From Golubevia sp. BC0850 (Eukaryota > Basidiomycota > Exobasidiomycetes > Golubeviales > Golubeviaceae), in NCBI GenBank assembly GCA_012976225.1, contig JAAVVG010000002.1, positions 1,054,001 through 1,118,000 of the forward strand: a stretch of 64,000 bases of DNA. The letters run 5' to 3'. Position numbers and translations under genes: made by a program. Positions 11,134 through 46,662 of this stretch are shown here, one piece after another; the first letter of the stretch is position 1; the number at the start of each line of letters is the position of its first letter. The notes beneath the pieces were generated by a model. It had not been told where the DNA came from. It made no database searches and saw only the letters and a list, made by a program, of their open reading frames with translations.

Positions 11134-12260
11134 TCAGATCTCGACCTCCCACAACGGCTCACGAGCTGGATCAAGGATTGTTTCTACTAGTTCCTTGAGA
11201 TGCTCCAGATTTTGCGGACTCATTCCTTCGAAAGGAATGATCAGTTTCTTCAGAGGCTCCATCTGGATTTTATCGTCTTCAACCCCAGCTTCGAGGTTGT
11301 CTTTCCTTGCTCGAAGGAAAGCCACAAACCTTTCGTGATAGTAATTCATACGAGCCGAATAACTAAGAACTCGTAGACGGGGACGCCTAGATTCGGCATC
11401 AGTTTCCACGAAAGTTAGTTCTACCTTCATTTCATGAATTGGAGGGAGTTCAGAGAGTAGAAGGTAGGAAGATAACTTCGAGATTGAGGATATGACCATC
11501 CATTCAGGGAAGTTATAATGACCACCTCTCAGTTCCAGTACCTCTAGGAGTGGTTATTGGAGGGGAGCGACTCCATCGCTTTCTCCTCTCGGAGCGATGT
11601 AGAGATGTTTGAGGGTTCCGGCACTATGGTTAAGGATCTCTCTCCACTCCGAATGACCCATTCCGTTGTATAGGACAGCGAGAAAGACCAGATCCTGGAA
11701 GATGACCGGTTGTCGCTGAAGAAGAGTTGGGATTGAGGGCATCCAAAGGACTTGGAGGGGAGAGATTCCATCTTCGATGAGTTTGCCAATTCCTGTCTTC
11801 CTCAGTAGGCGTACCTTTGGGAGATATACAGTATCAGTGGCTCTAAAATCCACCAAGTTCTCCAGCTTGGGAAAACCTTCTTCCCTAGTTGCTCCAGTTT
11901 CTCGTGTAATCCGCCATTCCAATAAATTACCACCAGAGAGAAAGAGAGAAGGCTTCCGTTCGATCTTAGTAGTGCCGTGGTAAAGTGATTGACATTCATG
12001 TCGTCCTCACTCTCCACTTCGAGAGAAACTTCCTTGAGAGTCGAACCACTCTTCCCATCGAAGAGGTCTAAGACAGATTCGTTCCACTCTACCTCTCCTC
12101 CCAGCACTAGAACCTGCCTCAAGGCTTTGTTCTCGTCGATGATCTCCAACCACTGCTTGCAGACTATTCTAATCTTGAAAACTCGATTCCCATCTAACCA
12201 CTTGAAGGCGATAAAGAGGAGTTCCGATGGAAGAGAGTCGTTGATGGAAGGGGAGACCAT
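11134..12260 (-). pseudogene. F-box gene copy 1 (degenerate)
   Basis: The N-terminal frame from 12260 encodes an F-box: INDSLPSELLFIAFKWLDG followed by RIVCKQWLEIIDENKAL. A downstream leucine-rich part ends with LVETILDPAREPLWEVEI. Compared with copy 3, one base is missing near codon 130, shifting the frame, and a TAA interrupts the later part before PLLEVLEL, so the gene reads in three pieces. F-box proteins recruit substrates to SCF ubiquitin ligases; this copy probably no longer makes a full one. The same two lesions occur in copy 2. A GTGAGT donor lies shortly after the stop codon, so the 3' UTR was probably spliced. Confidence 0.8.
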
Positions 12261-12848
12261 GTCGGAAGACGCTCATTAGAGAGAAGGGGAGTGAGTTGAA
12301 CATACCAAGCAAAAGAAATCACCGAATAGATGGAATTAGTGTGAGAGAGAGGTACTTACCACCCTGAATTGTGGAACGAAGGTTTGGTATGGATTGAAAA
12401 ATTTGCTTCTGGCGAGAGACTGAGATTGCTGACGAATGCAAAGATGATGTAGCTATCAGAGATAGAGTCAGAGAAAGAAGGAATGGTAAAGCGGATGAAA
12501 AGAAAGGCGACTTACTCCTTGAGAGATCCGAAAAGAGCGAGCGTTTGGAATGGAAAGGATGATATTGATAGCTGAGTCCAATGAGGTGCTGCCTAGCTGA
12601 TAACGTTCGACTCTCTCTCAAATTGAGATTGTCAATCTAGCAGAGTTGAAAGACTTTAAGTAAATCACAAACCATCAACCCATCAAACTCAATCCTCTGA
12701 AGAAGGATTGATCTGAGTCTCGCAGTAGCATCTCACCTGACTTTGGCAATAACCCAATTGCCAAACGCGCAAAGACAGAGCTGAAAACAAAACCACGACT
12801 CCTCAAACAACATCATATTAATTAAGTCAAGAAGTTGGAATCAAGAAG
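12261..12848. other. Divergent intergenic, F-box copy 1 / SMC2
   Basis: Holds the 5' flank of F-box copy 1, including a GGTAAGT donor near 12355-12360 on the minus strand that suggests a 5'-UTR intron, and the SMC2 promoter with the CGCG element near 12766. No further gene was seen. Confidence 0.4.
12763..12773 (+). promoter_or_regulatory. CGCG (MBF/E2F-like) element upstream of SMC2
   Basis: The sequence aaacgcgcaaa lies about 76 nt before the SMC2 ATG. CGCG cores of this kind bind MBF/SBF factors and drive G1/S genes in fungi. Binding here is inferred from the motif and the gene's role. Confidence 0.35.
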
Positions 12849-15800
12849 ATGAGGATAGAAGAGCTCATCATCGATGGCTTCAAGAGGTGAGCATAAAAGA
12901 ACCGTAGCCACCGAGAGAGGTTGATTGGTTTAGGGTTTGGGAGGGAGCAGCAAGGAGGCGAGTCCAACACACCCAGACCTTCACTCCATGATGAGTGCGT
13001 TATATGGTGGTTGGAATGGAATCAATGGGCTAAAACGATTTCAGAGACGGAGAAGAGATGGAGAGAAAAGGGTCGATAGAGAGTAGGGTTAGGATGGAGG
13101 ATCCAAATCCAATCAAAGGTACATGTCCCATGATGTCACCCTTCATTCAACCTGGCTGCAACTGACGCGCTCTCAGATTTAGCAATGGATCATACGGATG
13201 TATTTTAAAGGATGAGAGGGGGCAAGAAGGAGGGAAAGAGAGGCAGGGGGGCATGCTCTGCAGTTGAAGAGGTGGGCAAAGCTGCAAGTGTTAGAACGCA
13301 GCCTTCAGAGACTCTCTGTTCTGAGAACTTGCAGGAAGTTATACGGAGGATGTATTGAACTGTCCGAGAGCATGCTCAGAAGGAATGGTTGGGTCGTTAG
13401 GGAGTGGTCTTGTGCTGCTGATAGAGAATAGCTGCGAAGCACAACACCATTCCCTTCTTTCTCTTCTCTTGTTTCGACTCTGAGAATTGGATTCATCAAT
13501 CGGATTGCCTGCAAGTGGAATTCAGATTCTGGGTTACTGACCTGGTACACCCCTCCCTCCTCCCTCTCTCCCACTTCAGTTATCCAGTCAGAACTCATGT
13601 TTCTGGTTTCGATTCCTCTTTCAATGCCATCACAGGCTTAAACGGTAGTGGTAAATCAAACATCTTGGATTCGATTTGTTTCGTCTTAGGAATCACAAAT
13701 TTATCAGCTGTAAGTTTATCGTCTCGTCCTCATCCCCTTCCCTTCTCCTCACTAACCCTCCATCCCCCCTTCCCACAGGTACGAGCTTCAAACCTTCAAG
13801 ATTTGATCTACAAACGCGGACAAGCAGGTATAACAAAAGCCTCGGTAACAATAGTCTTCGACAATTCAGATCGAGCAACTTCACCAGTTTCCTTTGAGAA
13901 TTATTCTTCAATCACTGTTACTCGTCAAATTGCTATGGGAGGTTTATCGAAATATCTAATCAATGGTCATAAAGCTACTCAACAATCGGTTCAGAACTTG
14001 TTTCAATCTGTGCAACTCAATATCAATAATCCTAACTTCTTGATCATGCAAGGTAAAATCACAAAGGTTTTGAACATGAAACCTCAGGAGATTTTGAGTA
14101 TGATTGAAGAAGCTGCTGGAACTAGGATGTTTGAAGATAGGAAGGAAAAGGCTTTCAGAACTATGAATAAGAAGGATATGAAGGTTAAGGAGATCACTGC
14201 TGTGAGTTCTAGGGAGAGGTGCAGAGAGTTTGGGGTAATATTGGAGACGAGAGGTTTGCTGAACTATTTGGCTTCTTTCTCTATCCAACTTCCACTCGCA
14301 GATCTTGGCCGAAGAAATCACTCCCAAGTTAGACAAGCTCCGAGAAGAGAAGCGCTCTTTCCTAGAATACCAGAAGGCTTCTACCGAATTGGAACGTCTA
14401 ACTAGACTTTCAAAAGCCTACGAATATCAATCGTTGAATTCCAAACTTTCATCTAGAACGAATCTAGTCACTTCTAAGAGATCCGAAATCTCAGCATCAG
14501 AAAAGAAAATCGAAGAATTCTCAAAACAGATCAAGGAAGTCGAGAAAGAACTTTTGGAGATTGAAGCTAAAAGAGAGGCTGAATTAGAGAAGGGAGGGAA
14601 ACTTCAAGGATTGGTGACGAAAGAAAAAGAAATGGAACATGATCTCGTTAAGAAGAAGACAGGTCTGAAATTCAAGGAAGACAATCTTGAAGAAGAGAAG
14701 AAGAAATTAGGAAATGATAGAGATTATCTTAAGACTCTGGAGAAGAATCATGAAGAGAAGAAGAAGGAATTGGAGGAGCTGAACAACAACTTCAAAGAAA
14801 TGAAAGAAAGTTATGAGAATTCTTTGAAGGAATTGAATGTCAAAGATGAATTGTTACAGACTTTACTGACTGGTATGGCTAGTAACAAGAAGAAGAAAGA
14901 AGATGGTGAAGACGATAATCAAGGAGGTTATATTGGAGCTCTTGCAAATGCTAAATCGAAGGAAGCCAATGCCATTACTGAGATCTCTCAAACCAAGTTA
15001 AGAATTTCACATTTGACTAAGGAGTTGTCTTCAAAGGAACCTGCTGCTAAGAAAGCTTCTAAAGAGAATCAAGGTTTGATTTCTGAACTAGAAGAATTAA
15101 AGGAGAAATTGACTGGTCTGGATCAAGAAATGAGCAAGATGAGCTGGAACTCTGAGAAGGAAGTTGAGTTGAATGAAAGGAAGTCTACACTTGAAAAGGA
15201 GATTAATGATCTAAGTGAGAAGAGAGACTTCCTCAAAGCTAGATTAGGTGGTCTTGACTTCAATTATCAAGATCCAACTCCAGGTTTCGATAGATCAAAA
15301 GTTCAAGGTCTGATCGCTTCTCTGATTACTCTACCAGCTTCTAATGCATCTTTCTCAACTGCTTTAGAAATCGTAGCTGGTGGAAGGCTATACAACGTAG
15401 TGGTGTCAGACGAAAAAATCGGTTCTTCTCTATTACAGAAAGGTCAACTCAAGAAGAGAGTCACTTTGATCCCTCTCAACAAAATTTCAGCAAACGTAGC
15501 TCCAGCCGAAAAAGTCAATGCTGCCAAATCTCTAGCACCTCAAAAAGTCGAACTCGCTTTGGAACTGATCGGATATGAAGATGAAGTTGAAAAGGCTATG
15601 AAATACGTCTTTGGTAACACTCTTGTCTGCAAGGATTCCGAAACCGCTAAGAAAGTCACTTTTGATCAGAAAGTTAGAATGAAATCTGTCACTATGGAAG
15701 GTGATGTCTATGATCCTGCTGGAACTCTTAGTGGTGGATCTAAGAACCAGGGAGGTGGAGTTCTTTTGAGAATGACTGAACTTTTGAATGTGGAGAAGGA

Positions 15801-17793
15801 ACTGAAGGCAAAGACGGAAGAATGGAAGAAATTGGATGGAGAGATGAAAGAAGGAAATGTTGAGAAGAATAAATGGGAGGTTAAGAGAAGAGAGAAAGGA
15901 ATGTTGGTTCATAGGATTGAATTGTTGGAAGGGCAGATTAAGGGAAGTAATGCAACTAGGGTGAGTCAAAGCTGATTCAAAATGTGTTTGACTCGTCCAA
16001 GCTCTTCACTGACACCCCTTTCTCGTCTTCTCAGGTCGTAGCCGAAGTCGCTGCTCTCAAAACCTCGCTTCAAGAACTCGAAACTGCTTCGGAAGCTGCA
16101 ACTCAACGACTTGAAATCTCTAAAGCTTCCGTCATCTCCTTGACTAAGGAACTTGAGGAATTCAACAATAACAAGGATTCTAAACTCGATGAGCTCAAAG
16201 CCGAATTGAAGAAGATGAAGAGCGACATTCAGAAAAGTAGTACTGGAGTTAAAAGCAGACAGAATGAAATTAGAACTATGGAACTGGAAACGGAGCAAAG
16301 TGCGAAGGACGTTGAGAATCAGGAGGCCAAACTGGAAGAAGGAAAGAAAGCGCTCGGAAATAGAGAGAAAGAAGTAAAGGATGTGAAGGTTGAGATCGAA
16401 CAGTTGCAGGTGAGCCTTCAATGCATGCTCCGAAGCAGAGACAGCGACGGAGAAGGAATCGAATGACCTCTAACCTGTTTCCTTTGTCATTCCACAGAAA
16501 AAATTCGATTCCCTTCAAGAAGCTCTAACAGCCGAACGAGCCACTCTATCTCGTTATGATTCTTCCTTAACTTCCTTAGCAACTGTCCTCAAAACCAAAC
16601 GCCAATCAATTTCAGACCTCTCTCTACTCCTTAAACAACACAATCACGAAATCGAGAAGCTCGAAACGGAAGTCAAATCAACTGAAAAGATGCTGGAAAG
16701 TCTAGTCAAGGATTTCGATTGGATTGAAGAAGAGAAAATGGATTTCGGTAAAGAAGGTACGAGTTATGATTTCGATAAACAAGACATGAAGGAATTGAGA
16801 AAGAATTGTAAGAAATTGGAAGAACAGCAGAGTGGGATGAAGAAGAAGGTCAATCCGATGGTCTTGAACATGATTGATAGGTAAGTCTATTGAGAGAAAG
16901 AAAGGTTCTTTGGTTGATTCTGACTCCCATCTGTCGTTGCTCAACTTTTAAACAGTGTCGAGAAGAAAGAGACCAGTCTTAAACAGATGCTCTCGACAGT
17001 CTTGAAAGACAAGAGCAAGATCGAAGCTACTATCGATGAGTTGGACAGATATAAGAAAGATGCTCTGCAGACCACTTGGGAGAAAGTCAACGGGTGAGTA
17101 GCAATTGTCTTGGATGGGAGACAAACCAACGAAAGCTGACTTTTGTTTTTGTTTTTTGGTTTCGTGCCCCAGTGATTTTGGAGATATCTTCGCCGAACTT
17201 CTACCTGGGAACTACGCCAAGCTTCAACCTCCCGAGGGACAGGAATTGACTCAAGGTCTAGAGGTCAAAGTCAGACTAGGTTCGGTTTGGAAAGCGAGTT
17301 TGACTGAATTGTCTGGTGGTCAGAGGTGAGTAGAGCAACCTCACGACTAGGACTGCAACATTAAACGTCTCTGACACCCCTTCTCCTTCCTTTTATGTCT
17401 CCGTTCAGATCCTTGATCGCCTTATCGCTCATCATGTCACTCCTTCAATTCAAGCCAGCTCCGATGTATATTCTCGACGAAATCGACGCAGCTCTGGATT
17501 TGTCTCACACTCAACATATCGGACAACTCTTCAAGTCTAGATTCTCAGGTTCTCAATTCATCGTCGTCTCTTTGAAGGAAGGTCTATTTACGAACGCCAA
17601 TGTTCTCTTCAGAGCTAGGTTTAGAGATGGAACTTCTATTGTCGAAAGGGTTGGTCAGAAAGGTTCGAGTGCTTCTGCTAGTGCTGGAAAGGAGAATGAG
17701 AGTGCTAACGGAAATGGGAGGGCGGAATTGAACGTCAATGGTGGTAGGAAGAAGAAGGTCGCCAACCCTCCAAGGAGAGCTTTGGCGGCTTGA
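12849..17793 (+). CDS. SMC2: Condensin subunit SMC2
   Basis: Exons: 12849-12886, 13580-13709, 13779-14201, 14302-15960, 16035-16409, 16498-16880, 16956-17093, 17173-17325 and 17409-17793, giving 1227 aa in frame, a normal SMC2 length. The N-terminus [18 protein letters not shown] is typical of SMC2. Walker [10 protein letters not shown] is at 32-40 (Lys38), the ABC signature LSGGQR at 1095-1100 (split by the last intron), and Walker [12 protein letters not shown] near 1120-1130. Long coiled coils flank a hinge around residues 510-690. SMC2 pairs with SMC4 to make the ATPase core of condensin, which compacts mitotic chromosomes. Intron 1 is 693 nt, long for this window. The C-terminal tail is basic and Asn/Gly-rich. 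The gene converges on COX12, with 368 nt between the stop codons. Confidence 0.96.
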
Positions 17794-18161
17794 TCCTTCT
17801 CACTTTCATCTCTCTCCACTCTTCGTCCGTATCCCTGCCACTCTTTCTTTGGATGATCTTTCCCTTCTCTTGTTCCAATTTTTCTTGTCTCGACCATCGT
17901 CCCTTGTCACTTTATGTCTCGTCCGTCTTGATGCAGTCTTGTACTATCTTTGATATTTTTAACAACGTTCCGATCAAACTTCGATTTCTGAACAGAGAAA
18001 TTTCAACCAGGCATTTTGGAGGCAGCAAACGAAAAGGACGATCATGATTTTGCATTGCTATAAAATCTAAAGAGAAAACCAAACAGAGCCTCTTTCCTTC
18101 AGACTTCGATCGATTGTTCCGCCACCGAATCCACCATTTGACTTCAGAAAAAGAAGCATAT
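17794..18161. other. Convergent 3' region, SMC2 / COX12
   Basis: Shared 3' UTR space of two converging genes. T-rich and AT-rich stretches are present; no further gene was recognised. Confidence 0.5.
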
Positions 18162-19810
18162 TTATGGGTCAAGCGAGGCAGGGAAGTTGTTGTTCTCCCT
18201 TTGCTCGTCCCATTTGGCTAACTGTGAGTTGTGAAAAGAATTGGTAGAGATATAGAAGGATTGAAATCAGAGACGAAACGAAACGATATTGATGAAAGGA
18301 AGGAGCAGAAAAGCCTGGAGACATTAGCGAAAACAAAATGATTGAAGATATTCCTGTTGAGCAAGAGACCGGGCAGGTGGGTTCTCTCAAGGAGGCTATC
18401 CATTCCTTTCCGTTCCCTGATTGCCCTCCTTCTACGGGAGAGGCGAATGCCCTCCTCCACTGCAATCTGTTCTCCTTAAATCCGATGAAAACCCTCGATG
18501 AAGCTCAATTTCTGGGCTTCTTCGCAGGGAAGCGAGCCTGAGGAGTTTCCTTCCCATCTCACAAGACTTTCTCCAAGGTCCTACCCCGCCTTCCTCTTTC
18601 TTTGCTCTCTTTGCGACTCTTTGACCAGCCAATCTCTCTTTGATTCTTCCAATTAGAGCTCGGCTTCCTTCGTTACCTTTCAAGATACGTAAAGAGATCT
18701 CACTATCTCCCAACCTTTCGCCTCCTTGAACCAGGACTCTATGCGTTGCCAAAGAACGCTTCTGCTCCTATCATCCCGAGATGCTGATTCTGGATTCCTC
18801 TCCTGCCCTTTGCCTTGCTGATCCCGCCCTATCTTGCTGATCCTGCCCTATCTTGAACAGAGGAGTCCTTCCTCCTCTTGTTCCTCCTCGCCTGTTCTTT
18901 ATTTGATGTTGGTTTCCGAACGAGAAAGACCTTCTGAACCTAATTCCGTCAAGTAAAAGGGACCGCCTTAGAGAAGAGACTTACCCATTCGTCTGAGTAA
19001 GGAGAAGAAGAGGAGGAAGGAGAGAATCGTAAGCAATCTTCCTGAACCAATCTCGTGCGCTCCACCGACGTCATCCTCGCAACCAGCCCTACCAGCTTGT
19101 ATCCGAATCGTAATACGCACTTGGACATAGAGAGTGGTAGGCACGGAAGAACTGCTTGCATGGAGTGAATTCCTCTCCTTTGGCGTTCACACACTTGTAG
19201 TAGTCGACGTAGCTAAATGGTTGAAAAGTGGAGTTGCGGGATGCCAGAGCAAAGGTTGATTGAAGAAATTGGAATGAGATTGGAATACGCGATGAGGGTT
19301 GAGGTTGAAGAGAATAGACAAGATGAAACGTTTGGAGAAAGGGAGGAAGATAGAGGAAGGTGAGCAGGTCCATCGACTGTCAAGTCAAAGCTAAGAGGCG
19401 GTTTGAGCGTAGAGACAACTCACTTTTGCCAGCTTTTGAAATCAATTCCAGATTCCATGAGAGCCAAGATAGAGAGAGAAGAAGAAGAGAGGACATGAGC
19501 AACTCACACCGAGCATGGTTGCTGTTGGATCTTCTGCCGCTCTCAACTCACCAGTGCTTCGTTTGGTTCTGGTTTGGGAACCTAGCATCGAACGAAGCGG
19601 CTATAAATGAGAAAGTCGAAATTGGAAGGAACCGATTGCTTGTGAGTAAGACGTTGAATTGATGAATTGTCTTGTCATCTTCAACCTGGTTGGTTGATAT
19701 CGTCCGCTTGGCGCTTATGAAGCTCCTGGCTCTGCTACTGGTACCAGTTGAAGTTGAAGATACTTACTTTGTAGGGTGTAAGAGGAGGAGGAAGATTCAG
19801 AGTCGGTCAT
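18162..19810 (-). CDS. COX12: Cytochrome c oxidase subunit 6b (Cox12)
   Basis: Exons in transcript order: 19810-19768, 19600-19552, 19432-19424 (9 nt), 19212-19121, 18992-18985 (8 nt) and 18221-18162, giving 86 aa in frame. The protein matches the Cox6b/Cox12 family along its whole length: [20 protein letters not shown], then YYKCVNAKGEEFTPCKQFF, then LCPNEWLAKWDEQRE and a FPA-containing end. Cysteines at 31, 41, 52 and 63 give the family's CX9C and CX10C pair, which forms disulfides in the mitochondrial intermembrane space. Cox12 helps dimerise and assemble complex IV. No exon exceeds 92 nt and the last intron is 763 nt. The two microexons supply Cys31-Trp-Gln-Asn and Asn-Glu-Trp, all conserved, so both must be spliced in. 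The 9-nt exon's acceptor (tttcaaaag) is weak. Confidence 0.93.
18814..18851. repeat. 19-bp direct repeat, two units, in COX12 intron 5
   Basis: Two adjacent copies of cttgctgatcccgccctat differ at one base. They lie inside the 763-nt last intron of COX12. Confidence 0.7.
18985..18992 (-). other. COX12: 8-nt coding microexon of COX12
   Basis: On the minus strand acgaatgg sits between ttactcag and gtaagt. With the preceding A it encodes Asn-Glu-Trp of the family motif CPNEW. Confidence 0.85.
19424..19432 (-). other. COX12: 9-nt coding microexon of COX12
   Basis: On the minus strand ctggcaaaa sits between tttcaaaag and gtgagt. It encodes the junction Cys-Trp-Gln-Asn, which includes the first conserved cysteine of the twin motif. 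Confidence 0.8.
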
Positions 19811-20373
19811 CTTGGATGAGGAGAGTGGTTGAGGAAGAACTCGTAGAGGCTTCACTTCGGACCTTCTCTCCAACAGAAAGGAGACCAAGCATGGCCCCAC
19901 TCCCTTGCCATTTCTCTCGAGGTTGGGATTGATTTTCTTTCTGGAGATAACTTTATTGGGACTCTCGATGTAGATGAGCCCGGACACAAACAAGGAGGGC
20001 TCCTTGAACGGTGCCAGTCACCCTTTGCAGTCGAAGTCAGTGATAGGACTAGTTACAGAGTTTTACAGAGTTATAGAACCCAATACATCGATACCTTCGG
20101 GATTTACGAATCATCTCTCTGCCTGACCATCTCAGACTATAGCACTGAGGCCTTGATGTCAACGACGAGAGAAAGCTCTTCTCAACACATCACCGTCTGA
20201 CCCCTCCCAATCATGATGTGTCGTGGCCTACAAAAGCCTTCTAAGGAAGATGGATCTGCGATGAGAGAGAGTGGGGAGAGAGTAGAGTCCGAAACTCCAA
20301 ATCACATCTGAGCAGCCTCCCAAGTTTTCAGCTCAGATATCAATACCAATCAACTCACCAAGAGGAGGTCCTG
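19811..20373. other. Upstream of COX12; no gene seen
   Basis: COX12 promoter side and the 3' side of the minus-strand locus that follows. No convincing exon or known promoter motif was recognised. Confidence 0.4.
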
Positions 20374-23320: not shown

Positions 23321-26300
23321 ATGTCTGATCAATCAACTCTTGGGTAAGTAGAATTAGAAAAGGGTAGAATAGAAAGTCTTGAAGCTAGTAGCAAGCAAGA
23401 ATCTGGTTCACCTACCATGCTCACACTACGTTTGATACCAACTGACTCGCTCTCTCTCCCCTTCTCCCCACTCTGGCATTCCCTCTTACCCTCAGCAAAT
23501 TCTTCAAACGTTCTGACGGATCTGCACCCAAAGCCACAATGAAGCAACAATCTCTCAAAGCCTCCTTCAAAAAGGGAGTCGCAAATGAGAAGAAGAAAGA
23601 GAAAGAAGCACAACTTTCACCAGCACCAACAACCAAAGCTACTACTTCCACTTCCAAATCGCCTTCTCCCTCCAAATCTACCTCTTCTTCTAAATCACCA
23701 GTCAAAAAGGCTTCAAAAGATAAGTCAATCTCTCCTGTCAAAGGAAAGAAAGATGAAGATGAAGATGTGGAAATGGTAATTGAAGAGAAAGAGGTCAATG
23801 CTGCAACTGACAAGAAAGAGAAAGAAAAGGAATCAAAGAAACGTAAAGAACCTGGAACCAAGAAGGAGCCCATTGAGATTGGGCATCAGGAAGAGGAAGA
23901 TGATGAAGATGAAGGTGAGTCTCTTGGTTTATGGGATTGAGAGGAAGCATTTGGGTAGAGTGAAGAAGCAAGGTCTCAAGCGGAAGGCGGATTGTGGGTG
24001 GCAAATCTCTTTACGTCAAGATTCAACGTTATCCTTTGATTCGAATCGAATAAAACTATCTTACACGTTGGATTCTGATCGCGACGATCCAAGTTAAATC
24101 AAAAGCGTTTTGAGCTCCAGTTCCCTAAACTCTCCCCTCTGCCCCTCTCCTGCCTTCCAACTTCTCCAAAACCTCTCCTACAGTCATCCAAGCTCCATCA
24201 CGTAAGAAATCTCGTGTCACATCCAAATATAAGAAAGATTCCATCGTTCTCGATTCAGACGATGATGAAGAATTAGAAGAAATGAAACCTACTGCTTCAT
24301 CTTCATCAAAACCTTCTTCTTCTTCTTCAAAGAAAGTCTCTTCTGATTTAAAGATCAAATCTTCAATTTCCGATTCTTCTAAACCTTCTTCTCAGATCAA
24401 TAGATCTAAATCTCCGGTTTCTACTAAAGAGAAAGGGAATGGGAAAGAGCAAGCTAGATCTAATTCTCCGGAGAAGAAATCGATCAAAGAGAAATTGGAT
24501 GAGAAGGACAAGAGGAAGAAGGAGAAAGAGAAGGTCGTTGAGGTAGATGAAAATGAATCAAGTGAAGAAGAGGACGACGAAGATGAAGAGGAGGAAGATG
24601 ATTCTGAAGCTGAGGAGGAAGCGACTGAAGGATTGTGAGTCATTTCTTGTTTCTGCCTTCTGTGGAGATTCTCTTCTCTCATTCGTTTGGATTCAACTTG
24701 CTCACTCTCTTCCCATTCTTCTTCATGTCTCTGTTCATGTGTTCCACTCTTTCCCCCCAAGAGCCACCCTCTTCACCAAAGGTTTCAAGGACACAACCAC
24801 CGCTAAGAAAGAAAAAGGTAAAGCTAAAGGCAAAGGAAAAGTTCCAGAAGAAACTGATTTCGAAGTTCCGGATTGGAAAGAAGGTGACTCGTAAGTCTTC
24901 CAAAGATCCTTTTCCTCCTTTGTTTCTATACAGTATAGCCTTTTGACTTCTCTCTCCTTCCTTTTCCCCGATTTCTTCTTCCCTTCAGAGTTCCTTATGC
25001 AGCTCTAGCAGCTACTTTCTCTGCAATCGAAGCAACTCCAGGTAGACTCTTGACCATGCAAATCTTGACTAAACTTTTGATCAAGGTTATTGAGAAGAAA
25101 CCTCAAGAGTTGGTTTATGTTGTTTATCTCTGTGTCAATAGAGTGAGTATTTGATTCTAGAAATAATACTGGAAACAATTGTGAAAGTGCATGCAGATGA
25201 AAGCTTATCATATCTCTTTGGTTCAAATCAGATCGCTCCGGATTATGCTGGAATTGAATTAGGTATAGGAGAAACGATTATCATCAAGGCAATTGCTGAA
25301 GGAACTGGTAGGAAAGTTGCCGATGTCAAGAGAGATTTGGAAAATCTTGGTGATTTGGGAACGGTTTGTCTTGTAAGTTTTGAGGAGGAAGGGAGACTTT
25401 CTAGGATTGAGAGGAAAGAGACTTCGAGTAAAATTTGTGCCGACAAATCTCCTCCTTGTCTTCGTCCCACTGACTGTTTTTTGTCTATCCCAGAACTCGA
25501 AAAAGGGAGTGAGACAAATGTTCAAACCAACAGCTCATACCGTACCAAAGCTCTTCGCCGCCCTAACTTCAATCTCTTCAGAAACCGGTACTGGATCCGT
25601 AGCAAAGAAAGTCAACACCATCTCACGTCTAATTGGAGCTTGTCAAGGAAATGAATCCAAGTACTTGATTCGTTCTTTAGAAGGAAAATTAAGAATCGGT
25701 TTAGCTCAGAATAGTGTTGTGGTTTCTTTAGCTCATGCTATGGTCCTATCAGAAAATCTGAAGAAAGGAAAGAAGATGATTACTGATAGAGAAGAATTGA
25801 AGGAGGAAATGGAAAGGGGAGTTGAAGTCGTCAAACAGGTCTTCAGTGAATTACCTAACTTTGAATTGGTTTGTAGTGCTCTTTTGGAGAAAGGTTGGAG
25901 GGGTCTGAGAGAGGTTTGTAAGCTTACTCCTGGTGAGTTCTCGAAAGGGAGCAGCAAGGTGATAGGGGTGGAAGAGGGGGTTTTGTTGAAAAGTGGAATG
26001 AGCTTGAATTTCCTCGAACTGACCCTCTTTCTCTTTCTCCTCTTATTCTCTACTCCGCTTCTGGTTTCTTCTTGCCCTTCTCAGGAGTGCCTTTGAAACC
26101 TATGTTAGCAAAGCCAACCAAATCCATCACAGAAGTTCTAGATCGTTTCGAAGGAAAGAAATTCACCTGCGAATACAAATACGATGGAGAACGTTCTCAA
26201 ATTCACTTCTATCCCAATCCAAAGTATTCTATTATTTCTTCTTCTAACGACTTGAAAGACATGAAAACTTCCAACCTCTTACTTTCACCTTCAAAGAAAG

Positions 26301-28157
26301 CTCCAACTAAATCTACCTCAAACAATAAGTCTAACATTGGAGTCTTCTCTAGGAATTCAGAGAACATGTTAGCTAAGTATGTCGATTTAGTTGAGCAATT
26401 ACCTCGTGCTTTGAAAGATGGAGTTGAATCCTTGGTCGTCGACGCTGAAGTCGTAGCTTGGCAGGTTGAAAAGACTACTACCGGCAAAGATGGAAACGAG
26501 GTTCAGGAAGAAGCTAGATTGCTTCCTTTCCAGGAATTGAGTAAGAGGAAGAGGAAAGATGTCAAAGTGTGAGTTTGGGCTTAAATGAAGTGTGACAGAC
26601 ACAGAATCGGCTTTGAAGGAGAGCCTGGAGTGACTGGAAGTCAATTTGGCTCTGACAAACTTCTCTTTCTTTTTTCCCCTTCTTTTCGATTGGCAGTGAA
26701 GATATTACTACCAAGTGCAAGCTGTATGCTTTCGATCTCCTGTACCTCAATGGGGAGGTGAGTTGACTCGGAGACAGTGCCGCTTTATTGCTCACTCAGA
26801 ACTAATCTGACTTTCTCCTCTTTCTCTACCTCCCTTTCCAGTCATTGCTTCATCTTCCTCTGACAGTCCGTCGTGAGAAACTTCGTGAAAGTTTCCATGT
26901 AAGTGCGCTCTCCCTTCTTTGCTCTTCGTCGCAAGAAGCGACAGCTGGATAATTCGAATCTCTTGATCGCGTTCCGTCTCTGATCTGATTTTCTTGTGCT
27001 CTTTTTCTTCTTGAATTTCTCTAGGTTGTTCCAGACGAGTTCGACTTCGCCACCTCGGAAGATTGTACTACTACCGAAGAGATTCAAACTCTCTTGGATG
27101 CTAGTATCAAATCAGGCTGTGAAGGATTAATGGTCAAGATGCTGGAAGGCACTGAATCCTACTATGAGCCAAGTAGAAGAAGTATGAACTGGTTGAAGGT
27201 GAGCATCGAGAAAGTCGTTCAACCTTGACGACACGTCGACGTCCTTCTGACTTCGCTCCTTTTCCCTCGTCATCCCACTCGCAGGTCAAGAAGGATTATC
27301 GTGAGTCAAAAGATTGTCGAGCGCTTCAGCGAAAGGTCCAGAAGATGAATGCTAACGCTCGACGCACCTTTTTCTTCCCCTCTTCAGTCGCTGGTTTAGG
27401 AGACTCTCTCGATCTAGTCGTCATTGGAGCCTTCCTTGGTAAAGGAAAGCGTACCAATGTCTATGGTGCTTTCTTGCTGGCCTGTTACGATGCTGAAAGT
27501 GAATCTTATCAAGCTATCTGCAAAATCGGAACTGGATTCTCAGAGAAGAACTTAGACGACTTCTACGCTCTATTGAAACCTCATGAGGTCACAACAAAGA
27601 AAGGCTACTTCGACGTTGGTGATGCTAAACCTGATGTTTACTTCGATGCTAAGGTTGTTTGGGAAGTCTTGGCTGCTGATCTGTCTTTGAGGTTAGTGTC
27701 GACGTCTTGTCCGAGGATCAGAAGGAGCTTTTTAATGCCTTTACCATTTCTGACGCCGCTGTCTTATTCTTTTCATCTCGACAGTCCGGTTTACACTGCT
27801 GCTAAAGGAATCGTTGAAGCTCGTGGAATCTCTCTTCGTTTCCCTCGTTTCATCCGTGAGTCTCGAGACAGTCTTCCCTGATTTTGGGTCTTAATATCTG
27901 ACGCTCTTCTTTCCTTTTCTTTCTGCTGTCAGGTGTTCGTGACGATAAAGATGTTGAGGAAGCTACTGGATCTGAGCAGGTAAGTGCAAGAACTCTGACA
28001 TCTCCCCTTTCTTCCTCTGTTCTCTATCGTTGTTTGCTGATCAACGTCTTCTTCTCCTGCAATTTCTATCATCGAACATCAGGTCGCTGAGATGTACAAT
28101 CGTCAAGCCGTGATGACTCTTAAGGGTAAGAAGGAAGCAAATGACGACTACTGGTGA
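23321..28157 (+). CDS. CDC9: DNA ligase I
   Basis: Exons: 23321-23343, 23496-23914, 24184-24634, 24762-24890, 24989-25142, 25232-25372, 25494-25932, 26085-26568, 26697-26757, 26842-26898, 27025-27198, 27285-27300 (16 nt), 27388-27691, 27785-27855, 27933-27979 and 28083-28157, giving 1014 aa in frame. The N-terminus carries the PCNA-binding PIP box QSTLGKFF, split by the first intron. A long Lys/Glu/Ser-rich linker follows, then the ligase DNA-binding domain (MFKPTAHTVPKLF, GKLRIGLAQNSV). The catalytic core has EYKYDGER with the adenylated lysine at about 617. The OB-fold part contains KKDYLAGLGDSLDLVVIGAF. It seals Okazaki fragments and repair nicks using ATP. It is somewhat longer than yeast Cdc9 because of the linker. 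Confidence 0.96.
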
Positions 28158-28808
28158 AGAGAAACTCCACTCCTTCCCTTCAATCCCCGTTCCACTTTCT
28201 TCCCTTCGTCTCTTCTTAATCCCCATATCAAATGTGACAAGTGAAAAACAAAGCGACAAAATTCGAATTCAAACCATGTACTAGTAAACATAAAGAAACA
28301 ATTCTTTCTCCTCTAAAACGCTATCACCATTTACCATCACTTTGAATTCAAAGTCGGGCTTTTTGGCATTTGATTCAAAAGCCTGTTTGTGTGTAGGTTG
28401 AATGTAGGACATGTGTATAAGTGAGAATGAGGCGAGCTGTCAACAAGAAGGAAACGTCTTCTTTTACCCTTCTACTCACAATGATATCTCGAACTGAAGA
28501 TCGCACTTTGACCATCTGAACTTTTTGGAGCTTTCGATCATGCTCAGATCTTCAACAAGCCTCCCATCCTCTGGGTCAAATTCGGTAAAGCCGTTCCAGT
28601 TACTTTCCGCTCCAAGAGATTTCGTTCGAAGAACTCATGGCTTTTACCGAGACTCCAATCTTCTTCAAAGGGAACTCTGAACCACTCGTCGTGGAAGCTG
28701 GGTTTATCTAGAGAGACCCTGACCAGCATTCCCTTTGATTCACCTTTCAACCTCTGACTATCCGGCAGTTTCATTCTCCTTTCATTCGCCCTCTCCCATC
28801 AGCAGGCC
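28158..28808. other. Intergenic, ligase / F-box copy 2
   Basis: 3' UTR of the ligase gene and 5' flank of F-box copy 2. The 5' flank of copy 1 is not repeated here. No other gene was recognised. Confidence 0.4.
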
Positions 28809-29949
28809 ATGCTCACTCCTTCCATCAACGACTCTCTTCCTTCGGAACTCCTCTTTATCGCCTTCAAGTGGTTAGATGGGAATCGAGTTTTCAAGATTAG
28901 AATAGTCTGCAAGCAGTGGTTGGAGATCATCGACGAGAACAAAGCCTTGAGGCAGGTTCTAGTGCTGGGAGGAGAGGTAGAGTGGAACGAATCTGTCTTA
29001 GACCTCTTCGATGGGAAGAGTGGTTCGACTCTCAAGGAAGTTTCTCTCGAAGTGGAGAGTGAGGACGACATGAATGTCAATCACTTTACCACGGCACTAC
29101 TAAGATCGAACGGAAGCCTTCTCTCTTTCTCTCTGGTGGTAATTTATTGGAATGGCGGATTACACGAGAAACTGGAGCAACTAGGGAAGAAGGTTTTCCC
29201 AAGCTGGAGAACTTGGTGGATTTTAGAGCCACTGATACTGTATATCTCCCAAAGGTACGCCTACTGAGGAAGACAGGAATTGGCAAACTCATCGAAGATG
29301 GAATCTCTCCCCTCCAAGTCCTTTGGATGCCCTCAATCCCAACTCTTCTTCAGCGACAACCGGTCATCTTCCAGGATCTGGTCTTTCTCGCTGTCCTATA
29401 CAACGGAATGGGTCATTCGGAGTGGAGAGAGATCCTTAACCATAGTGCCGGAACCCTCAAACATCTCTACATCGCTCCGAGAGGAGAAAGCGATGGAGTC
29501 GCTCCCCTCCAATAACCACTCCTAGAGGTACTGGAACTGAGAGGTGGTCATTATAACTTCCCTGAATGGATGGTCATATCCTCAATCTCGAAGTTATCTT
29601 CCTACCTTCTACTCTCTGAACTCCCTCCAATTCATGAAATGAAGGTAGAACTAACTTTCGTGGAAACTGATGCCGAATCTAGGCGTCCCCGTCTACGAGT
29701 GCTACGTTTTCTAGATTGATCTACGGTCCCGAAACACTGGTGGCTTTCCTTCAAGCAGGAATCCTTCAAGCAGGAAGAAACAAAATCGAAGCTGGACTCG
29801 AGGTCGAAGGAGTGCGGATGGAGACTCCGAAGAAACTCGTCGTTTCCTTCAAAGAGCGCAACTCGGAAAGTTTGGAGCAGTTCAGCTCATTAGTAGAAAC
29901 AGTGATAGATATGGATCTCGAGCCCACGCTATGGGAAGTAGAGATGTAG
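28809..29949 (+). pseudogene. F-box gene copy 2 (degenerate, inverted relative to copy 1)
   Basis: From the ATG at 28809 the frame gives the F-box (SLPSELLFIAFKWLDGNRVF), then loses frame at the same missing base as copy 1 and meets the same TAA before PLLEVLEL. From about 28815 to 29700 it matches copy 1 (reverse complement of 11369-12254) base for base as far as I checked, with equal length and one silent difference noticed near the start. After 29700 it diverges sharply to a different paralogous end (VAFLQAGILQAGRNKIEAGL, then LVETVIDMDLEPTLWEVEM), and the join is itself out of frame. It is best read as a pseudogene partly overwritten by copy 1 or the reverse. Confidence 0.8.
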
Positions 29950-38040: not shown

Positions 38041-39060
38041 AGAGGAGAAGGTGCATGTTGAAATTTTTGTTTCCAATCAATCGTAATTACATTCCTATAG
38101 AAATTGCAGGGTCATAGGTCAATTTGGCAATCGTCATATCGTCATCAGAAGGAACTGGAACCGCTTAGGAGAGGCTCTCACGACTCAGTATCGAACTGTT
38201 CCGAGTAAAAGGTTTTGGATGGATGGATGGATGGGCTGGGAAGGAGGGAGGAATCGTGCTGCAGCTTTCAGTCTTTTACTCTTCATTTGGAGGGATCTCT
38301 CTCAGCTCTGTCGCCGAGCAACCAAGAAAACTCACGATGAAACCTTTCTATTTGGTTCTGAGCTCTGGAAAGACTCGCGCTCTGTGAAATGCATCGTCAA
38401 TCTCTCCTCATTTAACCTCGGTCATCTTCCTTCTCGGCGTGAACATAGCTAGAGCCTTATAGAACAGAAGCAATGAGCGAGAGAGAGAGAGAGAGAAACT
38501 GGAAATTCGATTACTTCAGTCAAAAGAGGGAAAAGGGGGGGGGGAAGTTGCTGAACAGGTGCTCAAAGCAAAAGAAAAGATGAAAAGAGCCGGAAACAAG
38601 GAAGACGAGTAGTCAAGAGAAATCATTGTTGATGCGTAGCTAGTTTGGTAAGAGCTGGAGGGATGATGTGTCCACGAGTTGGGTTGATCTTGAAGATCGA
38701 TGTTGGAGGAGGGTAGAAAGATGATTGACATGAACCTTGCTTTATCGGCGGTGGCAGAAGGAGAAAGAGCGAGCAGGATAGACAAGAGGGTCAATACGAG
38801 AATCAGAGATGCGCTATAGAATTGCTATGGTAGAGAGACGAGGCAAGACAAGCTGTCGAAAAAGGACAGGTTGGGAGGGACTCTCAGATTTCCAACGGAA
38901 TCATTTGAGTGATGGAAACGATTGAACGAATAACAGTTGCAGCTGGAAGGAGACAGACAAAATGTGTTGTGCGTCAGCTTGCAAGCAAAGGAGCGCAAGA
39001 GGTATATCGAATAGAGACGAGGAGAAGGCAACGTAAACTCACCTTTTCAAGCCTCCGAGT
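38041..39060. other. Intergenic, MTHFR / F-box copy 3
   Basis: Contains a short (atgg)n run near 38217-38233, a (ga)n run near 38474-38494 and the spliced 3' flank of F-box copy 3. On the minus strand 38640-38800 has a hydrophobic stretch (LILVLTLLSILLALSPS) and, in another frame, INPTRGHIIPPALTKLATHQ before a stop. This hints at a small gene that I could not assemble. Confidence 0.35.
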
Positions 39061-40215
39061 TCAGATCTCGAGCTCCCACGACGGCTTATGAGTCCACTCA
39101 ACGACTGTTTCTACTAGTTCCTTGAGCTGCTTCAAGTTTTTGGGACTCATTTGTTTGAAAGGAACCGCGAGTCTCTTCAGAGGTTCCATCCGTACTCCTT
39201 CGACCTCGACTCCAGCTTCGACGTTGTTGCTTCTTGCTTGAAGGAAGCCCACCAATTCTTCGTGATAGTGATTCAAAAGCGAATAACTAAGAGCTTGTAG
39301 ACGAGGACATCTAGATGCGGCATTAGTTTCCTCCGTAGGAGCTCGCATTACCTTCATTTCATCGATTGGAGGGAGTCCGGAGAGTAGGTAGTAGGAAGAT
39401 AACTTCGAGATCGAGGATACTACCATCCAGGCTGGAAAGCTCTTTAACACACCTCTTCCATTCAGCTCCAGCACCTCTAGGAGTGGTAAACGGAGGGGAG
39501 CGACCACATCGCTTTCTCCGTTAAGAGCGATGAAGAGATGTTTGATGGTTCCGGCACTGTGGCTAAGGATCTCTCTCCAATCTGAATGGCTTCTTAGAGA
39601 GAATGGAACAGCGAGAGGGGTCAGATTCTGGAAGATGACCGGTTGTTGCTGAGGAGGAATCGAGATCGATGGAATCCAAAGGACCTGGAGTGGTGAGATT
39701 CCATCTTCGATGAATCTGCGAACTTCTGTCTTCCTCAGTAGGCGAACCTTAGGAAGATCTACATCATCGAAGGCTCTGAAATCCACCATGTTTCTACAGC
39801 TTGAAAAAATCTTCTCTTCTAGCTGCTTCAGTTTCTTGGATAATCCGAAATTCCAACCAATCACCAGAGAGAAGGCTTACGTTCGATCTTAGTAGTGTCG
39901 TGGTGAGTTGATCGAACAATGAGTATTCAGGGGATGTAAGCTGATCCTACCTCTCTTGAACTCAAGTGAAACCTCCTTGAGAGCCGAACCACTCTTCCCG
40001 TCGAAGAGCTCCAGGACGGATTCGTTCCATTTCAAGTCTCCCTTCTTCTCCAGTACTAGAAATTGCCAGAAGGCTCTGTTCTCGTCGATGATGTCTAGCC
40101 ACTGCTTGCAAACTACTCTGATCTTGAAAACCCGGTTCCCGTCGAGCCACTTGAAGGCGACGAAGAGGAGCTCAGATGGAAGAGAGTCGTTGATGGAAGC
40201 CAAATTGTGCAGCAC
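39061..40215 (-). pseudogene. F-box gene copy 3
   Basis: The F-box part (INDSLPSELLFVAFKWLDG, RVVCKQWLDIIDENRAF) and a 267-codon leucine-rich part (39864-39061, ending LVETVVEWTHKPSWELEI) are in different frames. Compared with copies 1 and 2 the join around 39860-39960 has small deletions that shift the frame, and no intron with good signals repairs it. There is no ATG at the position used by copies 1 and 2; GTG stands there. The long second part lacks the frame loss and TAA that break copies 1 and 2, so it decayed independently. An upstream first exon that supplies the start and a short intron remain possible. Confidence 0.65.
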
Positions 40216-43815: not shown

Positions 43816-46662
43816 ATGAATCGAGCTACAACGATTTCAAGGCGATCTTGTCTAAACGCAAGAATCTCAAAAAACCTCAACCCTTCAACGGTCAGTAGCG
43901 TCTCGACACAGGATAGGAGGAGCAGAGTCAGAGGAGAGCAGAGCAGGCTTGTGGAAGGAAGAACTGCCTCCCAATCGAACCTATCCTATCCTCTCCTCTC
44001 CGAGGCCGATGCGATCTGAATTGGAGCATTTTCAGGCTAGATCAGTCAGATTCACATCAAAGAGTGTCTAAACCTACTTGAGCGAGGAGTACTGACTTCT
44101 TCTACTCCCCATCCTACTCCACTCCTCTCCTCTCCTCTCCTTCCGTTTCCTTCCGTTTCCTTCCGTTTCCCTTCGTTTCCTTCAGCGATCCTTCACTCAT
44201 GAATCAGTTCCACCTCCAAAGAGGAGTAGGTCCTTGGGATCAAGACTCTTCTTCACCACTTTGGTTGGAACGACGCTCTTCTATGGTGGAAGTTCAATCG
44301 CTGCCATGAACAATGACAGGTATCAAGGTGAGCCTAACATGTCTTGCGATCGATTCCATAAGAAGGAACATGCGGAAAGACGGAAGTTCATATCGGAAAG
44401 CGAGACGCTGGAGAAAGATTGAGGAGCTAAAGGGAGCAGGGCGAGAAGAAACTCAATGAGACTCAAGTCCTTCTCGAAACAAAAGATGGAATAGGAAGAT
44501 TTGGATTCTCAGGCATATCTGTAATTCGAAATGAAGAGGATCGGGGGTGATGGGGCCAGGGACAGAGCTGAGATAGATCTCGCGAGTGAACCAGATCGGG
44601 AGAGGAAGGAAGGGCTGGCAGGCTTGAATGGACATAGAAGCTGGACACATGGTGCAAGTCAGCGAGGCACCGCTTTGAGTGTAATCTTCTGAAAGAGTCG
44701 TCTACTCAGCCGCCTTAAAACAAGACGAGAGCAGCTCCTACCAGGAACATTCGAGATCTAACCGTCCCCTTCTCTCCTCTCCCCATCCCCTCCCCTAGAC
44801 TTCTTTGTCGAATCAGTACCACTCGGTTCAACCATTGTCGACTACCTAGAAACTCATGATATTTCCGCCGATCTCCAAGGAGTGAATCTAGGAGAATACG
44901 GAAACAAAGCAGTAGACCTTTCCAAGAATGCCTATGGATCAGTTTCAGAAGCAGTAGACCGAGTTCTTCATTCGGATTCTACGACTCTCAAACCTCTAGC
45001 TTCAGATGAAAGGGATGCAAGAGATCAATTAGCCGATGCCAGAAAGAGGGCTCAGAAGAGGTTTGATGAATTAGCCAACAAGGGTGAAGAAACCAAAGAA
45101 GACCTTAAGGAAAAGACTTCAAATTTAATTGAGAAAGCTAAGAATCTAGCTTCCAAAGCTGAAAAGGATGTTCTCAAAAAAGGGGAAGAAATGAAAGACG
45201 CAGCAGTTCAAAAGAAAGAGGAAGCAAAGAGATCTTTGAGATTGAAGAATAACAATGAAGCTGGAAAGAACAAGGCTTGGAATGAAGCTCTACCTGTTGA
45301 TCATTCTGCTCCAACTGGTTATGTCGCTCCAAGATCTGATAGACCTTTAAAAGCTAATGATCCAGAAGCTACTTTAAGAAACGATCCAGGTTTGAAAAGG
45401 TTACCTAGGTTAAGTCCTTCTATCTCTGCTTTATCTGCTTCTGAACCAATGGTTGCTCAATTAGCCTCTACTATTGATGAATTATCTGCTTTCTTAAAAG
45501 ATGAACCTGGAAAGGGAAGTGCTGCTAAATCAGTCATCCATTCTGCTCAGAAAGATCTTGAAGGATTGAACAAGAGACTGGAATTCATCAAGAAATCAGA
45601 ATCTGAGAGAGTTGATAGGGAATTGGAGAAGGTTAAATCTAAATTCGATGCTCAACTAGAAAAGACTGAAAAGGAAAGCTTGAAAGCTTTGAATTCGAAT
45701 GATAAGAAATGGGAGGAGGAAATGAAGTCGAATAGAGAGAAACAAATTAAAGAATACGAAGAGAAATTGAAATTGGAATTGACCACTCAAAGTGAAATCA
45801 TTAATGAGAGGTTAAGAGAAGAGGTTATCTCTCAAGGAATCGAACTTCAAAGGAGATGGATGAGAGAGTTGAAATCTAGAGTCGAGGAAGAAAGAGGTGG
45901 TAGATTGGCTAGATTAGAGGAATTAGCCACTGAACTTAAACAATTGGAGAGAATTCAAAGTGAGAACTCTACAATTTTAGATTCAACTACTAATGCCCAT
46001 ACTCTTTGGGCAGCAGCCAGAGCTGTTTCTTCAAAATTGAACGCTACGGACTCCGCAGATGAAGAAGCTTCTTTCGCAGGTTCAGAACTCAAGAAACCTT
46101 TCAGAGAAGAGCTCAGAGTCCTAAGATCTAAATCCGCTTCTCAAAATTCCAAGACTCTGGAGGCAGCCTTGGAGACTTTGGAGAATTCAGAATGTGCTGA
46201 TGTTGGAGTTGAAAGTCTCACTACTCTCTCTACTTGGTTTAATACTAGAGTAGCCCCTAGAATTCAAAAGGCTAGTTTGGTTCCTACTGATGGTACAGCT
46301 GGATTCTTATCTCATTTAACTTCTAGCATTTTATCTCCTATCATGTTTAAGAAAACTGGTTTCCCTGAAGGAACAGATACTCCGGCTGTGTTGGCTAGAG
46401 CTAGATATTATTTGGATAGAAAGGATTTGGATGGAGCTGCTAGAGAAATCAATTCTTTGGAAGGTTGGCCAAAGGCTTTGGCTAAGGATTGGCTGGAAGC
46501 TAGCAGAGCTAGATTGGAAGTTCAACAGGCTGTTGAGGTGAGTTGAAAAGGAATTGAGAATGAGTTCGTGGAAAACTTCGAAAAGCTGATTGTGTTTTTG
46601 TCTCCTTCATGATATAGGTCATCAACACGGAAGCTTCTCTAGCGACTCTTTCTGTTGTCTAA
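43816..46662 (+). CDS. MIC60: MICOS subunit Mic60 (mitofilin)
   Basis: Exons: 43816-43890, 44186-44327, 44799-46537 and 46618-46662, giving 666 aa in frame. The N-terminus is Arg/Ser-rich (MNRATTISRRSCLNARISK), fitting a mitochondrial presequence. It is followed by one membrane helix at about 46-65 (LFFTTLVGTTLFYGGSSIAA). A long charged coiled coil with Lys/Glu repeats comes next. The C-terminus carries the conserved mitofilin signature (ARARYYLDRKDLDGAAREIN, LEGWPKALAKDWLEASRARL, EVQQAVEVINTEASL). It organises crista junctions in the inner membrane. Introns 1 and 2 (295 and 471 nt) are long. The ATG was chosen because the first exon has a presequence and joins in phase. Confidence 0.94.
44141..44180 (+). 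repeat. 10-bp tandem repeat, four units
   Basis: Three exact copies of ttccgtttcc and one variant (cttcgtttcc) sit just before the 3' splice site of MIC60 intron 1 and enlarge its pyrimidine tract. Confidence 0.85.

Follow-up and report, generated by a model that had tools for sequence, protein, structure and literature searches.

The minus strand of the window, by which we mean the whole 64,000-nt stretch of DNA analysed here, carries COX12 between positions 19810 and 18162. Its six exons (43, 49, 9, 92, 8, and 60 nt) add up to 261 nt, encoding 86 amino acids and a stop codon, and are separated by introns 1 to 5 of 167, 119, 211, 128, and 763 nt in phases 1, 2, 2, 1, and 0, all five with GT-AG ends. 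Exon 1 (43 nt, 19810–19768) opens with the start codon at 19810 and ends at a GTAAGT donor, while exon 2 (49 nt, 19600–19552) ends at GTGAGT. Exon 3, CTGGCAAAA (9 nt, 19432–19424), lies between an AAG acceptor and a GTGAGT donor, and exon 5, ACGAATGG (8 nt, 18992–18985), between a CAG acceptor and a GTAAGT donor; with lengths inside the limit of about 30 nt and consensus splice sites on either side, both are predicted microexons. Between them, exon 4 (92 nt, 19212–19121) contains three of the four cysteines together with a PF02297 match of 37.1 bits, and is parted from exon 5 by intron 4 (128 nt, 19120–18993; donor GTGCGT). Intron 5 (763 nt, 18984–18222), which begins with the GTAAGT of exon 5, leads to exon 6 (60 nt, 18221–18162), where the stop codon lies. 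The sequence-only reading of this DNA had proposed that six small exons, the largest of 92 nt, join in phase into a complete 86-aa Cox6b, and both the joined 261 nt and the spliced alignment bear this out. The six exons, their phases, and the gene itself are supported, the splicing being predicted.

Exon 1 is the least certain of the six and is weakly supported. Only its last 7 nt align, with one of two references and at intron costs of −8 to −14 with splice-site scoring; the other reference aligns instead into sequence upstream of exon 2. Extending exon 2 upstream into intron 1 meets a stop before any ATG, so a separate first exon is required, and position 19810 offers an ATG followed 43 nt on by a GTAAGT donor. 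The two microexons are cut across codons. Exon 3 starts with base three of the first Cys codon, continues with full Trp and Gln codons, and ends two bases into an Asn codon; exon 5 supplies the last two bases of another Asn codon and then encodes Glu and Trp. The microexons had been said to carry conserved residues, which is true of the Trp in one and the Glu-Trp in the other, but the first Cys codon contributes only its last base and the Asn codons are split. It had also been said that ORF-based annotation would miss the gene entirely. The gene as such is indeed not found in this way, but exon 4 sits within a 94-aa ORF; exon 4 alone, translated out of phase from its first base, gave no Pfam match.

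Several other features were noted in the window. An SMC-family gene on the plus strand (13515–17793; SMC_N match at 17395–17790), which we take to be SMC2 from the way it reads, is convergent with COX12, and the stop codons of the two genes are about 370 nt apart. A 901-nt inverted repeat, with arms at 11361–12261 and 28808–29708 that are 99% complementary and an F-box ORF in each arm, is a recent local F-box gene duplication. Stretches of a third, diverged copy of this repeat (76–82%) lie within 39025–40199, and the ORF tested there had no Pfam match. At 44882–46546 on the plus strand, a 554-aa open stretch with a Mitofilin match of 351 bits is, after COX12, another mitochondrial inner-membrane gene of the window.

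The 86-aa product of COX12 scored 83.3 bits against Pfam COX6B (PF02297), for which the cut-off is 26. Twenty-four distinct solved sequences were matched, of which 21 bear cytochrome c oxidase subunit names (12, VIb/6B, or without further label) and the other three are COA6, with a solved Cox12 at the top (127 bits). The top chains, named subunit 12 with a single 6B, scored 114–127 bits against 29–35 bits for the COA6 chains, and this comparison places the product nearer Cox12 than its sister family COA6. Cx9C and Cx10C are the motif names of the cysteine pairs of COX12/Cox6b. Here, the cysteines at residues 31, 41, 52, and 63 form C31–C41 (Cx9C) and C52–C63 (Cx10C), a spacing identical to that of the aligned fungal Cox12 chains, and the earlier claim that both pairs keep the family spacing was confirmed.

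The assembly (25.77 Mb in 64 contigs) was searched with the PF02297 profile, and two matches were returned: exon 4 of COX12 and one locus on contig C44 (G000:C44). The C44 locus was considered as a second COX12 and rejected, its two-exon protein (joined by eye) aligning best to COA6 at 35 bits; the chains listed for this protein were three COA6 and one ATPEG5. An intact COX12 elsewhere, which the sequence-only reading had named as a finding that would speak against it, was looked for across the assembled 25.77 Mb and did not turn up; apart from exon 4, PF02297 matched only the locus that reads as COA6. No relatives were confirmed in viral contigs. The genome is taken as fungal from the Cox12 similarity and its gene set, with a resemblance to basidiomycetes, and a search for a 5.8S sequence found none.

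All five COX12 introns are of the U2 GT-AG type with G at +5. A CTNAY motif was present at −70 to −8 in every one of them and in 38 of 43 background introns from other genes of the genome (described below), compared with 20 of the 43 at a control position; in intron 3, the branch-like motif occurs at −66 only. Intron 2 ends in AAG without an adjoining pyrimidine tract, and AAG is the ending of three of the 43 background introns. Intron 4 has a CTTAC branch-like motif starting 41 nt from its end, and its pyrimidine-rich 3′ end runs up to the 8-nt exon. Each end of intron 5 has an alternative site 4 nt away from the modelled one (18992–18981, 18221–18217); use of both alternatives or of neither keeps the frame, with LA becoming VT after Trp. 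A mobile element or repeat within this 763-nt intron was considered and rejected, as its one genome match was itself in a search that skips very common words. No RNA gene was found in intron 5, with no Rfam match at the gathering score anywhere in the window, and two sub-threshold matches in 18000–20000 (E = 0.62 and 0.84) resemble chance hits. Three ORFs of intron 5, one inside it and two running into exon 6, gave no Pfam match over the cut-off; a single match below it was to DUF7617 (E = 0.082).

We then examined the two microexons by enumerating the splice paths between the flanking exons, whether or not they include an internal exon, and scoring each on its protein. In the gap from exon 2 to exon 4, the path with the 9-nt exon was the best of 457 with a score of 296.5, and the best path lacking an internal exon reached 271.5. 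Between exons 4 and 6, there were 116,185 paths, among which a 12-nt exon scored 298.5, the 8-nt exon 296.5, and the best path lacking an internal exon 269. For a test against chance, the flanking exons were kept fixed and each gap was dinucleotide-shuffled 2000 times. With any GT accepted as donor, an equally good microexon arose in 1 of 2000 shuffles for the 9-nt exon and 14 of 2000 for the 8-nt exon; with a GTRNGT donor required, the count was 0 of 2000 for each gap. A general spliced aligner given no exon information placed both microexons in eight of eight runs. A wider set of 20 runs combined two solved Cox12 references, intron costs up to −26, and splice-site scoring on or off. With scoring on, all 10 runs recovered the 8-nt exon and nine of them the 9-nt exon; with scoring off, the 9-nt exon was recovered in eight of 10, and exon 5 appeared as 12 nt in nine runs and was absent from the tenth. 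Exon 3 was dropped in three of the 20 runs, all at high intron cost on one reference. A strand control at an intron cost of −14 yielded 26 and 29.5 points antisense vs 242.5 and 269.5 sense. Overall, a predicted microexon at each of the two places is well supported.

These results bear on two other accounts of the microexons. Both could be chance matches, in which case other sequence, or nothing at all, would join the larger exons. The 14 shuffles that equalled the 8-nt exon with any GT donor lean this way, as does the fact that the aligner can fill a shuffled gap with a spurious internal exon (in 16 of 60 shuffles around the 8-nt exon and 1 of 60 around the 9-nt one), but none of those spurious exons was as good as the observed one, no shuffle succeeded for either microexon once a consensus donor was required, and the paths without an internal exon fall well short of 296.5 in both gaps. 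We regard chance as highly improbable. The other account keeps a microexon at this place and alters its length: exon 5 would be 12 nt (18992–18981) joined to 18217, and the protein would read NEWVTKW where the 8-nt form gives NEWLAKW. This form has the slightly higher protein score (298.5 vs 296.5), was the one picked in nine of 10 runs without splice-site scoring, and places a Val after Trp, as in one of the two references. Its donor, however, is GTCTCT, and the C at +5 occurs in no background intron, whereas G at +5 was found in all 43 background introns aligned with splice-site scoring, which itself favors G, and, with scoring off, in 41 of 44 at a cost of −14 and 38 of 39 at −18. The 8-nt form uses the first AG and the donor GTAAGT, which is shared with seven of the 43 background introns, and it won every one of the 10 runs with scoring on. 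Because its donor is GTAAGT rather than GTCTCT, we prefer the 8-nt exon and consider the 12-nt form unlikely.

Loss of either microexon is predicted to be costly. Skipping of exon 3 would keep the frame and the first Cys and turn Cx9C into Cx6C, and skipping of exon 5 would shift the frame; the COX6B score would drop from 83.3 bits for the full form to 67.3 without exon 3, 70.1 without exon 5, and 53.6 without both. Retention of any single one of the five introns would yield a truncated product of 31 to 78 aa. A regulated switch, in which exon 3 or exon 5 is skipped under some condition so that another form is made or COX12 is shut down, would be compatible with the in-frame skip of exon 3 that retains the first Cys, and a glucose-dependent microexon switch in Trichoderma offers a precedent (PMC11121469, in excerpt). 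The same skip nonetheless leaves Cx6C for Cx9C and costs 16 bits, the donors at both microexons are strong, and no regulatory hint was noticed in a plain reading of the sequence; we hold a switch to be quite unlikely. The heavy fragmentation of COX12 could alternatively mark this copy as a decaying pseudogene, with a working COX12 elsewhere. Against this, there is no internal stop or frame break, GT-AG ends are intact at five of five introns, the four cysteines and aligned motifs are kept, and the 25.77 Mb searched held no other COX12, so that we see decay as very improbable. Our main reading, to which we assign a probability of roughly 90%, is that the gene is the genome's ordinary nuclear COX12, encoding the small cytochrome c oxidase subunit Cox6b with a presumed role in complex IV, and that it has Cx9C and Cx10C pairs and two conserved motifs placed in constitutive exons of 9 and 8 nt between close introns.

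To place COX12 in its genomic context, a background of eight genes was analysed by spliced alignment: EF1A, calmodulin, DNA ligase 1, actin, CDC42, two other Rho-type genes, and cytochrome c. These were picked for conservation and for the availability of a reference, not randomly, and RHO_C5 aligned only in part. The 43 background introns ranged from 77 to 747 nt with a median of 149 nt, and seven were of at least 400 nt. Internal exons, counted without the first and last aligned exons, were 30 nt or shorter in five of 35 cases. Two of these are near the start of EF1A (22 and 10 nt; 473–494 and 693–702 of L035, G000:C11:415000-418600, reverse complement), two are in calmodulin (7 and 14 nt; 1046–1052 and 2137–2150 of L036, G000:C14:93600-97200), and one is in DNA ligase 1 (16 nt). 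The DNA ligase 1 gene lies in the same window as COX12, at about 24987–27958, and has 11 aligned exons at costs of −14 and −18; its 16-nt exon (27285–27300, plus strand) encodes the whole codons VKKDY right after a conserved NWLK, was recovered at three of three intron costs, and was equalled in none of 60 shuffles. With splice-site scoring off, the same five small exons were found among 36 at a cost of −14, and four among 31 at −18, where the calmodulin 7-nt exon was lost; the longest background intron was then 829 and 747 nt, respectively. When each gap was shuffled 60 times, four of the five background microexons beat all shuffles, and the calmodulin 7-nt exon, the weakest of them and lost in one of four settings, was equalled once. 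The aligner does add spurious internal exons to shuffled gaps (up to 25 of 60), with scores below the observed gene except in the calmodulin case.

In COX12, two of four internal exons are of 9 nt or less and the longest intron is 763 nt. COX12 is thereby at the far end of the local exon and intron range, hardly outside it. The special mechanistic interest that had been attached to the splicing of an 8-nt exon ahead of a 763-nt intron is weakened, as other genes here have exons of 7–22 nt and introns of up to 747 nt, and similar or smaller microexons have been published for fungi and plants. Tentatively, and with more doubt than confidence, we suggest that this fungal lineage may have constitutive microexons as a general habit (about one-seventh of internal exons in the conserved genes sampled) along with introns of up to about 750 nt, its spliceosome pairing sites across long introns and reliably including exons of 7–10 nt. 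If true, this would be a regime outside the usual fungal short-intron one, with COX12 as a compact model. Such a genome-wide microexon habit is a more interesting lead than COX12 alone.

We can postulate how exons of this size would be spliced. Under intron definition, each intron may be recognized as a whole through the donor, branch site, and acceptor it carries, and exon size would then be of little importance. An 8-nt exon would leave no room for the spliceosome on its two sides simultaneously, so that intron 4 and intron 5 would be removed in sequence, as would introns 2 and 3, and splicing of the first flanking intron would merge the microexon into an exon of normal size. Both the sequential removal and the order of the introns are inferred; in plants, reads indicate consecutive removal of the introns around microexons (PMC8831610, in excerpt). 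Since skipping or retention would lead to a truncated, frame-shifted, or Cx6C product, inclusion would be expected to be near complete. The 8-nt exon before a 763-nt intron would make this a compact and convenient gene for testing a fixed order of removal of microexon-flanking introns in fungi. There is also a consequence for annotation: ORF scans do not see this core respiratory gene, and predictors that impose a minimum exon length can easily lose it, so a report of "COX12 missing" from such a genome would be an artifact. Models of calmodulin, EF1A, and DNA ligase 1 are equally at risk in this genome.

A limited literature search by gene name found no paper on microexons in COX12, and PMC3990503 uses the word "microexon" once, as a mapper setting. 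Comparable systems are described in the following papers, which we cite from excerpts. The bglA genes of basidiomycete yeasts resemble COX12 as intron-rich fungal genes with tiny exons: by cDNA comparison, the smallest exon is 5 bp in one species and 6 bp in another, with up to 10 microexons (<30 bp) per gene (PMC9142197). They differ in encoding a beta-glycosidase and in having introns of at most 139 bp, as opposed to the 763-nt intron of COX12 (PMC9142197). In Phanerochaete chrysosporium, the shortest P450 exon is 6 bp and microexons occur across many genes of the genome, although these belong to the P450 family, have introns of 21–620 bp, and have been suggested to undergo alternative splicing (PMC1184071). 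Fusarium CYP621A shares with COX12 a tiny exon that contributes to a conserved motif, was identified through length and phase, and is easily missed in annotation; that exon, however, is 1 nt, from an ascomycete, and backed by Fusarium orthologues and SRA reads, whereas COX12 is described here from the sequence of one genome (PMC12940212). Plant microexons of 1–15 nt likewise encode conserved motifs, are often missed by annotation, and have flanking introns for which consecutive removal is indicated, but they come from land plants and draw on RNA-seq and cross-species conservation (PMC8831610). Xlr2 of Trichoderma virens also has a microexon in a filamentous fungal gene; its glucose-dependent inclusion alters the DNA-binding domain, whereas no sign of a switch was seen in COX12 (PMC11121469). 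The observation of predicted COX12 microexons holds up; they belong to an ordinary gene and are a further example of a phenomenon already known in fungi.
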